Virus record (IMG/VR): IMGVR_UViG_3300030450_001652
Span: 1-24,027 of that record
DNA length: 24,027 nt
DNA from: a virus
Direction: 5' to 3' (one strand)
Positions 1,481-11,975 of this stretch are shown here, in pieces. Within the stretch, counting starts at the first letter, position 1. The number at the start of each line of letters is the position of its first letter. The notes beneath the pieces are model-generated. The model worked only from the letters and a program-made list of their open reading frames with translations, had not been told where the DNA came from and searched no databases. The translations under genes were made by a program, and so were the position numbers.

Positions 1481-1495
1481 TCGGGCGTAACCCGA
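1481..1495 (+). promoter_or_regulatory. Small stem-loop upstream of the scaffold gene
   Basis: A perfect 5-bp stem (TCGGG/CCCGA) encloses the loop CGTAA. It lies 24 bases before the likely scaffold start codon at 1519 and has no T-tract, so it is not an intrinsic terminator. Its loop shares CGTA with two of the hairpins before the capsid gene (2411-2457). Confidence 0.4.
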
Positions 1496-1518: not shown

Positions 1519-2406
1519 ATGGAAAACGAAGAAGCGTTAAATGCAGAGATGGATAAAATGCGCGAAGAAGACGCGCAATTTAATCCAGATGAAGTTGCAG
1601 AGGAAGTAGTAGAGACTCCTGAAGTCGAAGCAACAGAAGCAACTGAAGAAGCACAAGTCCAAGAAACTTCAGAAGAAGTTAAAGAAGAAGTAAAGGAAGA
1701 AGTTAAAGAGGACGAAAAAGAAAAGCATTGGGCTATTAATGCGATGCACGAAGAACGTGAGCGTAGGAAAGAAGTACAAGCCCAGATGAATAAGATGGAA
1801 GATAGATTCCAAAAGATACAGGAATCTATGATGCCAAAAGAACCTGAAGAACCTAAACCTGACTTTGAAGAAAACCCTGCCGAGTATCTTAAAACTGAAC
1901 TCGATGAAATAAAGGGATTCAAAGCACAAGCGGAACAACAGGCACAAATAACTCAAGCACAACAACAGTTCTATGGTGATTTTTCAAAAGTAGAACAAGA
2001 ATTTTCAGAAAAGACTCCTGATTATTTTGATGCGGTTAAGCATCTTTATGATTCAAGAATGTCTGAGTATAAAACGATGGGATATGATGATAATCAATCC
2101 TATCAATTAGCCCAGCGCGATGCTTGGAATATTGCACAAGATGCAAATAATCGTGGTAAGAATGGGGCTGAAGTATTTTATAATCTCGCTAAAACAAGAG
2201 GTTATGAGAAAGGAAAAGAAACTACCGAGAAGTCAGAAATAGAGACTTTAAAGGAAGTTAAAGAAGTAGCTAAAAATACGGGTCTGGGTACATCGGGAGA
2301 TACACCAAAAGGACAAGTAAGCCTATCTGACCTCGCTGGTATGAATGATGCTGAGTTCGATAAACTCACATCAGGAGATAACTGGCGTAATATGATGGGT
2401 GGCTAA
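1519..2406 (+). CDS. Putative capsid scaffolding protein
   Basis: The 295-residue product is strongly acidic and Glu-rich in its first 70 residues, including a short EEVK-type repeat, followed by a long charged helical or coiled-coil stretch rich in Lys, Glu and Gln (about 70-165) and a looser C-terminus. Together with its place immediately upstream of the major capsid gene, this is the usual look of a phage scaffolding protein, which guides procapsid assembly and then leaves. The start is set at the ATG at 1519 because AGAGG lies 8 bases before it. An in-frame GTG at 1474 would add 15 residues that run through a hairpin and have no clear ribosome site. Assignment rests on composition and position, since scaffolds share little sequence. 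Confidence 0.75.
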   Translation: MENEEALNAEMDKMREEDAQFNPDEVAEEVVETPEVEATEATEEAQVQETSEEVKEEVKEEVKEDEKEKHWAINAMHEERERRKEVQAQMNKMEDRFQKIQESMMPKEPEEPKPDFEENPAEYLKTELDEIKGFKAQAEQQAQITQAQQQFYGDFSKVEQEFSEKTPDYFDAVKHLYDSRMSEYKTMGYDDNQSYQLAQRDAWNIAQDANNRGKNGAEVFYNLAKTRGYEKGKETTEKSEIETLKEVKEVAKNTGLGTSGDTPKGQVSLSDLAGMNDAEFDKLTSGDNWRNMMGG

Positions 2407-2410
2407 TCGC

Positions 2411-2497
2411 ACACAGCGTATCTGTGTTCCGTTTCTTCTCAAGACGTAAGTTGAGAAATCGTTGTACACCACGATAGTGTGTATTCGCATGAAGCGA
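2411..2497 (+). promoter_or_regulatory. Cluster of four stem-loops in the capsid gene leader
   Basis: The 129 bases between the scaffold stop and the capsid start hold four hairpins in a row. They are 2411-2427 (6 bp, loop CGTAT), 2436-2457 (7 bp, TTCTCAA/TTGAGAA, 8-base loop containing CGTAA), 2465-2483 (7 bp with one bulged C and a GATA loop) and 2485-2497 (TCGC/GCGA). None is followed by a T-tract, so these are not intrinsic terminators. They could be RNA processing or stabilising elements, or binding sites, for the highly expressed capsid message. The function is unknown. Confidence 0.5.
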
Positions 2498-2535
2498 TAA
2501 ACAACTAACTTTAATTAACAAAAGGAAATGTGTAA

Positions 2536-3603
2536 ATGGCTAATACAAGTTATGGGGTTAACAACCCTGCTGCGGTTAAGCTATGGTCACGCAAACTCTT
2601 TCACGAAGCACTTAAAGCTACTTGGATGTATAAGTTTATTGGTAAAGATTCCAATAACGTCATTCAAATGCACGATGACACATCAAAAGGTGCTGGTGAT
2701 CGCGTAAGAGTTATTCTCCGTATGTTGCTATCTGGTAATGGTATACAAGGTGACGGAACATTAGAGGGTAATGAAGAAGCGTTGACTACATTTACTGATG
2801 ACTTATTGGTTGATCAACTGCGACACGCAGTTCGTTCAGGCGGTAAGATGTCAGAACAGCGCATCCCATTCTCAGTTCGTGAAGAAGCTCGTTTAGGTCT
2901 TCAGGATTGGTGGGCTGACCGCATGGACACATGGGCTTTCAATCAGTTGGCAGGTAATACTGTTCAATCTGACACAAGGTTCACAGGCAACAATTCGGTA
3001 ACCGAAGCAGATTCAGATCATAAACAAGTCGTTGGGGTTAACACCACAACTGATGACACGATCTCTGCTACAGGTTCATCATGCGTTGCAACCATTAACA
3101 TGATTGATTCGGCAGTAGAGTCAGCTAAAACGCTAGACCCTATGATTCGACCAATCAAGTTGAAAGGCGAAGACAAGTACGTTATGTTCTTCCATCCTTT
3201 CCAAGTATTTAACTTACGAACCAGTTCTAGTACAGGTCAATGGCTTGACATTCAAAAAGCTGCTGTACAAGGGCATGGTAAGTATGATTCTCCTATCTAT
3301 ACTGGTGCGATGGGCGAATACAATGGCGTAGTTATTCACGAATCAAGTCGAGTACCAAAAGGGCATACCTCTGGAACTGAAAACGCAAGTGTACGAAGAG
3401 CAATCTTCTGTGGCGCACAAGCTGGACACATAGCGTTTGGTCAGGGTCATGCACCAAGTAAGTATTCTTGGGTTGAAGAACTGTTTGACTATAACAATCA
3501 ACTTGGCGTTTCGGCTGGGTGTATAAGCGGATTGAAGAAAGCTATTTTTAATGGCAAAGACTTCGGAACTATCGCTTCATCATCTTTTGCCGTTGCACAC
3601 TAA
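2536..3603 (+). CDS. Major capsid protein, N4-gp56 family
   Basis: The 355-residue product matches my recollection of the N4-gp56 type major capsid proteins. An early segment (LWSRKLFHEALKATWMYKF) precedes a basic region with SKGAGDRVR, then a GGKMSEQR and LQDWWADRMD region, and late capsid-fold segments with MFFHPFQV and GVVIHESSRVP. It forms the head shell, and its length suits the family. AAAGGA lies 10 bases before the ATG. It is preceded by a structured 129-base leader and followed after 15 bases by the decoration-type gene. The codons are a little less AT-rich than in neighbouring genes, consistent with high expression. Confidence 0.93.
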   Translation: MANTSYGVNNPAAVKLWSRKLFHEALKATWMYKFIGKDSNNVIQMHDDTSKGAGDRVRVILRMLLSGNGIQGDGTLEGNEEALTTFTDDLLVDQLRHAVRSGGKMSEQRIPFSVREEARLGLQDWWADRMDTWAFNQLAGNTVQSDTRFTGNNSVTEADSDHKQVVGVNTTTDDTISATGSSCVATINMIDSAVESAKTLDPMIRPIKLKGEDKYVMFFHPFQVFNLRTSSSTGQWLDIQKAAVQGHGKYDSPIYTGAMGEYNGVVIHESSRVPKGHTSGTENASVRRAIFCGAQAGHIAFGQGHAPSKYSWVEELFDYNNQLGVSAGCISGLKKAIFNGKDFGTIASSSFAVAH

Positions 3604-3618
3604 TAGGGGGCAATAGAC

Positions 3619-4050
3619 ATGGCTACAGCTACATTAACTAGCACTGCTGCTGCTTCTGGTGTTCCGCCAAGAGCAGTACACGCTGGATTAAATAGTTTGT
3701 CCGTTGAGTTTGACTCAGGGGCAATTTCATTATCTGGCGCATCAACAGTCTATATGGCTAAAATTCCTTCTGGCGCAACTATTGTTGACGTTATTCAAGT
3801 ACATTCATCAGGCGCAGATACCTGCCCTATGGATATTGGTATTAGTAATGCAACTGGTTCTTTGTCTGCGTTTGCTTCACAAGCTACACAAGGCACTGCG
3901 ACTCATGCAGAAAAAGGTGTTCCTTATGATGTTGATGCTTCTCAAACAGTAACTGCTGGGTACGAAATACTTAAATGTACTACTACCGCAGGTACTACCA
4001 CAGCCAACGTAAAGATTAACTTAACAGTTCTCTATACGATGGATAAATAG
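3619..4050 (+). CDS. Probable head decoration or head fibre protein
   Basis: The 143-residue product is rich in Ala, Thr, Ser and Gly with alternating beta-strand patterns and lacks membrane segments or catalytic motifs. It sits directly after the major capsid gene with a strong ribosome site (AGGGGG, 9 bases before the ATG). A strong terminator follows directly, so it is the last gene of the head-shell transcript. Small beta-rich proteins in this slot are usually capsid decoration, cement or head fibre proteins. No family-specific motif was identified, so the role is inferred from position and composition. Confidence 0.65.
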   Translation: MATATLTSTAAASGVPPRAVHAGLNSLSVEFDSGAISLSGASTVYMAKIPSGATIVDVIQVHSSGADTCPMDIGISNATGSLSAFASQATQGTATHAEKGVPYDVDASQTVTAGYEILKCTTTAGTTTANVKINLTVLYTMDK

Positions 4051-4064
4051 CTTTTTTGCTATAT

Positions 4065-4100
4065 GAAAAGGGGGCGTTATCGTCCCCTTTTCTTTTCTTA
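4065..4100 (+). terminator. Rho-independent terminator after the head genes
   Basis: A 12-bp stem starts at GAAAAGGGG, has one G-T wobble, encloses a TTAT loop at 4077-4080, closes with CCCCTTTTC, and is followed by a T-rich tail (TTTTCTTTTCTTA). It begins 15 bases after the decoration gene stop and is the strongest intrinsic terminator in the window. Confidence 0.9.
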
Positions 4101-11558: not shown

Positions 11559-11975
11559 ATGAATTTTAATTACATAGCACCAGAACAGATACCAACTGTT
11601 TGGCGAACAATAAGAAAAGATGTCATTCAATGTATCAATCAAGATACTGACGATTGTTTAATTGAAGACGTTTATTATTTTATAAAAGCAAACTTAGCAT
11701 CTTTATATGTATGCTACGATAAAGATAAGTATATTGGATTTTGTGTACTCCAAAGAATACACGATATGTATTCTGGCGTACCAAAAATAATTGTTTGGTT
11801 ATGTAAAAGTAAAAATAGAAAATACACAGAAATGTGTTTTGAATTAATAAAGAAACAAGCAATAGAATCAGGATGTAATAAGATTGTGTTTAAGAATACA
11901 AACAAAAGTTATTTAAGATTAATGAAACCACTAGGATTTAAACAAGGTGAAATGGAATTTATTTGCGAGATATAA
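11559..11975 (+). CDS. GNAT-fold acetyltransferase-like protein
   Basis: The 138-residue product has the GNAT order. An N-terminal helix (IPTVWRTIRKDV) is followed by a strand pair (ASLYVCYDKDKYIGFCVLQR), a strand before the cofactor loop (KIIVWLCKSK), a helix (CFELIKKQAIESG) and the C-terminal NTNKSYLRLMKPLGFKQ, which is very typical of GNAT domains. The usual Q/RxxGxG/A pyrophosphate loop is not clear, so catalysis may be lost. The gene stands at the head of the ejection-protein run, where T7-like phages carry the gp13 protein, which is related to acetyltransferases. AGAG lies about 6 bases before the ATG. Confidence 0.7.
   Translation: MNFNYIAPEQIPTVWRTIRKDVIQCINQDTDDCLIEDVYYFIKANLASLYVCYDKDKYIGFCVLQRIHDMYSGVPKIIVWLCKSKNRKYTEMCFELIKKQAIESGCNKIVFKNTNKSYLRLMKPLGFKQGEMEFICEI

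Follow-up and report, generated by a model that had tools for sequence, protein, structure and literature searches.

CGNNA-loop hairpins recur in the leaders of N4-gp56-type phage capsid genes and may form a docking array for post-transcriptional control

What purpose could be served by four small hairpins lined up, almost without gaps, between the scaffold-like gene and the major capsid gene of a tailed phage? We address this question for a phage record of 24,027 bases, hereafter called the window. There, the stop codon of the scaffold-like gene (2404-2406) and the ATG of the major capsid protein (MCP) gene (2536) delimit a leader within the following set of features:

1481..1495, + strand: extra hairpin in the leader of the scaffold-like gene, TCGGG-CGTAA-CCCGA
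1519..2406, + strand: scaffold-like gene starting with the ATG at 1519 and encoding 295 aa, named by its position before the MCP gene
2352..2368, + strand: hairpin in the 3' end of the scaffold-like gene, TGAGTT-CGATA-AACTCA, a possible extra copy
2407..2535, + strand: capsid leader holding the hairpin array, 129 nt between scaffold stop and MCP ATG
2411..2427, + strand: hairpin 1, ACACAG-CGTAT-CTGTGT, a near-miss to CGNNA; pairing probability 0.66-0.79
2436..2457, + strand: hairpin 2, TTCTCAA-GACGTAAG-TTGAGAA, loop with CGNNA; pairing probability 0.67-0.99
2464..2484, + strand: hairpin 3, GTACAC-CACGATAGT-GTGTAT, loop with CGNNA; pairing probability 0.33-0.64
2485..2497, + strand: hairpin 4, TCGC-ATGAA-GCGA, no CGNNA; pairing probability 0.57-0.67
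2506..2513, + strand: TAACTTTA, similar to the epsilon element of T7 gene 10 (weakly supported)
2522..2526, + strand: Shine-Dalgarno-like AAGGA, read from the sequence
2536..3603, + strand: MCP gene, 355 aa, N4-gp56 / Phage_capsid_3 type
3619-4050: 143-aa gene after the capsid gene
4065..4092, + strand: intrinsic terminator ending the unit of the MCP and 143-aa genes, from a terminator consensus scan

The N4-gp56 identity that the initial annotation had given to the capsid protein is borne out by its matches to Pfam PF13252 (E 5.8e-70) and PHROG 334 (E 1.5e-85). The product of the scaffold-like gene has no significant Pfam or PHROG match, and 71 of the 85 upstream open reading frames (ORFs) tested, that of the window among them, form one similarity group. 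Since a strong terminator follows the 143-aa gene, the capsid and 143-aa genes end one transcription unit, and a simple pattern search found a hairpin like that at 4065-4092 in six of nine close relatives. As for the stretch TAACTTTA, it resembles the epsilon element of the T7 gene-10 leader; 7-mers akin to epsilon (TTAACTTTA) occur in 6 of 109 leaders versus 2.9 ± 1.6 in shuffled ones, a weak enrichment only.

The initial annotation had described four closely packed stem-loops at 2411-2497, devoid of a terminator T-tract and with CGTA in the first two loops, and all of this is found: the hairpins are separated by 8, 6, and 0 nt, CGTA lies in loops 1 and 2, and loop 3 contains the related CGATA. 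An uninterrupted T-tract is absent throughout; the terminator consensus scan nonetheless flagged hairpin 1 as weakly terminator-like, with TCCGTTTCTT as its tail, and flagged none of hairpins 2-4. An intrinsic terminator or attenuator, which calls for a G+C-rich stem followed by a T-tract, was thus rejected as a reading of the hairpins. The folding energy of the whole leader (minimum free energy -27.9 kcal/mol, z -1.21) is unexceptional, as 27 of 200 shuffles fold equally well, and this measure does not reveal the element. At least four local hairpins arise in 22 of 1,000 shuffles of the window leader, which is moderately unusual, and the summed energy of the local hairpins, matched by 5 of 1,000 shuffles, is more so.

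The array is kept in close homologs: among the nine relatives with a 94-99% identical MCP, all nine have a leader that is almost letter for letter the same, an invariance that makes conservation visible and covariation invisible. Around it, the hairpin in the scaffold-gene leader carries CGTAA in five and CGAT in three of the eight close relatives whose contigs reach this region. The hairpin inside the scaffold-like gene has CGATA in 8 of 10 sequences and TGATA, with the C lost, in the other two; it may be a chance occurrence. Elsewhere in the window, a perfect 8-bp hairpin with the same loop, AGAATACA-CGATA-TGTATTCT, lies at 11754-11774 within a coding region.

More distant relatives, with only 55-62% capsid identity, have leaders that likewise abound in hairpins, with the pattern CGNNA recurring in the loops. 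In the window leader, hairpins 2 and 3 alone match it strictly. The pair of CGTA loops that had first drawn attention is real, but the recurrent element is the broader CGNNA, which also takes in hairpin 3 and a hairpin of the scaffold-gene leader at 1481-1495. In the discovery set (set A), 56 of 176 leader hairpins with a stem of at least 5 pairs carry CGNNA, when 60 dinucleotide shuffle sets yield 4.85 ± 2.1 (maximum 11) and the opposite strand yields 5 of 172. This set comprised 74 loci plus the window, reduced to 47 leaders by dereplication and a 60-nt minimum, and left out L043 and L068, where the match begins inside the gene, as well as L029, L063, L074, and L076, where the upstream gene was not found.

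Because the CGNNA pattern was picked on seeing set A, the clean test is that of the hold-out leaders alone. They were collected in two additional scans that used different capsid queries, were dereplicated against the discovery set, and were searched with the motif fixed beforehand; 133 loci entered, 131 had a leader, 22 leaders were shorter than 60 nt, and 62 remained after dereplication, with seven loci (L117, L119, L123, L125, L131, L156, L167) and four loci repeating contigs already in use (L209, L216, L218, L225) left out. One part of the hold-out, 34 leaders, had CGNNA in 19 of 88 hairpins (1 on the opposite strand; 2.0 ± 1.4 in shuffles, at most 6), and the other, 28 leaders, in 34 of 101 (5 on the opposite strand; 2.6 ± 1.5 in shuffles, at most 7). 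Pooled, these 62 leaders have CGNNA in 53 of 189 loops versus 205 of the 4,257 loops in the rest of these loci (p 7e-24). In discovery and hold-out alike, CGNNA ranks first of 384 three-letter loop patterns, CCNNA being a second, weaker form. The contigs are mostly metagenomic, and the upstream gene was taken as any open frame (at least 100 codons in set A, or 60 if cut; at least 60 in the hold-out), a simple rule that makes some leader limits wrong.

CGNNA hairpins reach 5.78 per kb in capsid leaders, versus 0.64 in coding and 1.13 and 0.56 in other noncoding sequence. When both strands of a 39.7-kb relative of the window (L003) were scanned, the capsid leader was the sole place with two CGNNA hairpins at most 90 nt apart, and this also holds for the L021 record; among the 12 genomes scanned, two others also have the leader pair, and G+C-rich genomes have background pairs. 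The CGNNA signal is restricted to one strand, the sense strand, and to one place, the capsid leader. A DNA-level element, such as a single-stranded hairpin origin, a recombination site, or a promoter site, might have been suspected, given that the hairpins are also inverted repeats in the DNA, but the strong bias toward the sense strand of the capsid mRNA (56 vs. 5, 34 vs. 5, and 19 vs. 1) and the coupling to one gene junction make it very improbable.

Of the combined 109 leaders, 24 lack a C[GC]NNA hairpin and the other 85 have one or more. With loops searched up to 9 bases, the commonest cores are CGTTA, CGTCA, CGTAA, CGAAA, CGTGA, and CGATA; the CGNNA core mostly sits near the middle of the loop, and the pair that closes the loop most often is C-G (59 of 130). 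Successive hairpins cluster at a spacing of 7-11 nt, and the median pairing probability of CGNNA stems in full-leader ensembles is moderate (0.45).

As the close relatives of the window vary too little, compensatory changes were sought in another subfamily, made of eight sequences (L009, L012, L017, L019, L022, L029, L212, L214) in which two orthologous hairpins hold GCCG..CAA-type loops on varying stems. In a MAFFT alignment, 87.7% of the cells are paired and 6 of 11 pairs show changes on both sides; helix 1 is paired in 100% of the cells and helix 2 in 79%, partly through misaligned rows. The covariation score, 0.445, compares with 0.221 for shuffled alignments, none of 500 of which reached it, and with a maximum of 0.169 for slid controls, over which the consensus structure has an advantage because it was derived from the same eight sequences. 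In this subfamily, the element is a conserved structured RNA with compensatory stem changes; such changes, proposed as a check by the initial annotation, are thus found outside the immediate family of the window, whose own members are uninformative. Against this background, the idea that hairpins merely arose by chance in an A+T-rich leader, to which the whole-leader z of -1.2 and the four hairpins in 22 of 1,000 shuffles could lend some credit, is contradicted by the recurrence across families in the hold-out and by the compensatory changes, and we find it scarcely credible.

What would a leader of this kind do? A loop that is kept while its stems change in distant relatives looks like a protein-docking array, and we hold, with middling confidence, that the capsid leader may act as a tandem array of RNA hairpins on which a putative binder sets capsid synthesis post-transcriptionally. 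The small hairpins would offer their common CGNNA loop as docking sites, a trans-acting RNA-binding protein would read this loop, and the bound protein would set the translation and/or the lifetime of the capsid mRNA. The earlier suggestion that the leader does more than load ribosomes, possibly by binding a protein, is in this regard well supported by a CGNNA loop that highly diverged leaders share on differing stems, that is specific to the sense strand, and that is concentrated in the capsid leader. Several observations weigh against the docking array: 24 of 109 leaders are devoid of a C[GC]NNA hairpin, most Bartonella relatives do not have it, the stems pair moderately in full-leader ensembles, and the window leader has two strict CGNNA loops among its four hairpins.

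A simpler role has nonetheless to be weighed, namely generic mRNA stabilization or a standby-site architecture in which short hairpins would protect the 5' part of the mRNA or space out a landing site for ribosomes and CGNNA would be nothing but a favorable loop fold. The position of the hairpins fits it, since a median of 53 nt separates the start codon from the C[GC]NNA hairpin closest to it, leaving the Shine-Dalgarno clear, and so do the hairpin that T7 gene 10 has in that position, whose loop is ACAAC, the terminator that closes the transcription unit, and the ordinary energy of the whole leader. However, a role in stability alone would not predict that one loop pattern comes first of 384 in two sets, and CGNNA is not used by hairpins in other parts of these genomes, so that we consider this explanation unlikely.

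Known systems provide partial parallels to the docking array. The T7 gene 10 leader combines a 5' hairpin, an epsilon element, and a strong ribosome binding site, and the resemblance to the window extends to a hairpin between scaffold and capsid genes, a weakly supported TAACTTTA-like element, and a downstream terminator, gene 10 closing its transcription unit as the capsid and 143-aa genes do here. T7 itself, however, has one hairpin, with an ACAAC loop and no CGNNA, and its capsid family is presumably unrelated by sequence to that of the window. In the RNA phages MS2 and PP7, which have single-stranded RNA genomes, the coat-protein operator is a single hairpin over the replicase start. There too, a loop of defined sequence sits on a short stem, where a virion protein could recognize it and so repress or couple synthesis; the present case differs by its array, its double-stranded DNA tailed phage, its other loop, and a binding that is only putative. 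The scaffolding protein of P22 is subject to post-transcriptional autoregulation, and the likeness is that head-gene output is tuned after transcription by a head protein. In P22, though, the scaffold and coat genes overlap, which leaves no such leader, and this autoregulation is not known to use hairpins.

A closer parallel is found in 60-kb Bcep22-like relatives (JC1, BcepMigl, ZX1, Skulduggery), most of which have a CsrA-like gene directly upstream of the capsid gene. Inspected by eye, 12 of 12 Bcep22-like records have a hairpin GCGC-[AT]NGA(N)-GTGC in the capsid leader, after sigma70-like promoter elements in most of them, and the CsrA-like gene and the hairpin occur together at L088, L089, L091, L086, L473, L474, and L476-L479. 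PBC5 has no annotated CsrA within the stretch examined, and POI1126 has a weak CsrA-like gene apart from its capsid gene. As in the window group, the hairpin lies between the scaffold and capsid genes and is a plausible regulator site, but it is a single hairpin of NGA/GGA type accompanied by CsrA, whereas the window group has CGNNA arrays and no CsrA over the cut-off in 41 records. The presence, at the same junction, of a CsrA-type gene with a hairpin of its own makes the regulation of capsid mRNA the most economical reading of the CGNNA arrays. It also suggests that the CsrA of Bcep22-like phages works on capsid mRNA rather than as a moron, the name given until now to phage CsrA genes beside capsid genes, and that such genes may have a cis action on this mRNA. 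In the portions consulted of the JC1 description, CsrA is classed as a moron, one CsrA peptide is reported in virions, and no link to the capsid leader is made (PMC9144972); a survey of CsrA lists phage csrA genes (PMC7366521).

Which protein might read the CGNNA loops? A CsrA-like binder, the first candidate suggested by the Bcep22-like relatives, was rejected for the window group because none of its 41 records, including the window, a 24-kb fragment, has a CsrA over the cut-off (one match is weak) and because the loops lack GGA: this triplet is absent from the hairpin loops of the window and occurs in the loops of hold-out leaders about as often as in shuffles (4 of 88 vs. 3.5 shuffled, and 4 of 101 vs. 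3.1). A dedicated small RNA-binding regulator of the phage was likewise set aside. In a blastp comparison of the ORFs of 14 genomes, which may miss small proteins that evolve fast, the capsid and nozzle-like proteins occur in 13 of 13 motif-bearing genomes, the scaffold-like and portal proteins in 12, and the adaptor protein in 11, functions being named by position and from the KLEP18-1 annotation; no small protein is widely shared except frames overlapping the genes of these proteins. With no conserved dedicated regulator in sight, a head protein and a host factor are left as candidate readers. Pfam, PHROG, and similarity comparisons gave no obvious RNA-binding domain or conservation hint for the scaffold. 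With low confidence, we favor a head protein over a host factor; this is the least certain step of the proposed mechanism, in which the capsid or scaffold protein would read the CGNNA hairpins as an operator array and, when unassembled, would feed back on capsid synthesis, a feedback that we put forward tentatively.

A host RNA-binding protein or RNase reading CGNNA loops, to which phage capsid leaders would have adapted, is possible as well, if doubtful. CGNNA occurs in phages and prophages of hosts as diverse as Methylobacterium, Bradyrhizobium, Reyranella, Microcystis, and Rhizobium, and it also reaches another capsid family. T7-type capsid leaders, meant as a negative control (41 leaders after dereplication, with L323, L324, and L329 omitted as the match stops short of the start), have CGNNA in 6 of 62 hairpins, all within one subgroup, and the control is not clean because these hairpins concentrate where a CG loop is kept on varying stems. 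In this T7-like subgroup (L263, L267, L295, L303, and relatives, including Erwinia phage L1), a hairpin lies 50-60 nt before gene 10 with CG invariant in its loop, as in TGGTCA-GCGTAA-TGACCA, TGGCCC-ACGTTAC-GGGCTA, and TGGCTC-ACGAAAC-GAGCTA. Such a motif before the gene of a different capsid family weakens the case for a binder specific to N4-gp56-type capsids, and reflects either convergence or a shared host factor. The host-factor explanation sits less well with the almost complete lack of CGNNA in 19 Rhizobium and marine T7-like leaders, with the unenriched other noncoding regions of the same phages, and with Methylobacterium, where 23 HK97-type capsid upstream regions have CGNNA in 4 of 54 hairpins versus 5 of 17 in six PF13252 leaders, a comparison of small numbers in which leader definitions differ between capsid types.

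Accounts of how tailed phages control their capsid-to-scaffold ratio dwell largely on gene order and ribosome binding sites. In capsid leaders, a recurrent loop motif offers a concrete, mutable element for testing post-transcriptional control, and could yield a new RNA-protein pair for tethering. If a head protein did read it, tailed phages would have an RNA operator system for their shell, widespread across hosts and replaced by a CsrA-based one in the 60-kb relatives. No Rfam 15 model matched the window or any of the 20 loci scanned out of 81, and no description of the CGNNA capsid-leader element was found in open PMC papers, nor in passages from two structured-RNA surveys (PMC2864571, PMC8040213).

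Other elements were seen at the same position in further groups. Bartonella relatives mostly lack CGNNA, with one hairpin each in L352 and L377 among the loci viewed; their capsids probably belong to gene transfer agents or prophages. At several Bartonella loci among L366-L387, a recurrent CCGGC-GCTTT-GCCGG precedes the capsid ATG in place of CGNNA hairpins. In alphaproteobacterial and marine T7-like phages (L428, L430-L432, L435-L443), a G+C-rich hairpin stands about 70-90 nt before the capsid gene, with a TGCG (UNCG-type) or similar loop followed by ACAACC or ATAACC, forming another capsid-leader element. Close to the scaffold-capsid junction, between the portal/scaffold and capsid genes, insertions of HNH or other endonuclease genes recur (L084, L085, L082). 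Lastly, the leader of the Bartonella locus L378, about 812 bases long, holds some 12 tandem CGCA-GGAGAA-TGCG hairpins upstream of the capsid gene.
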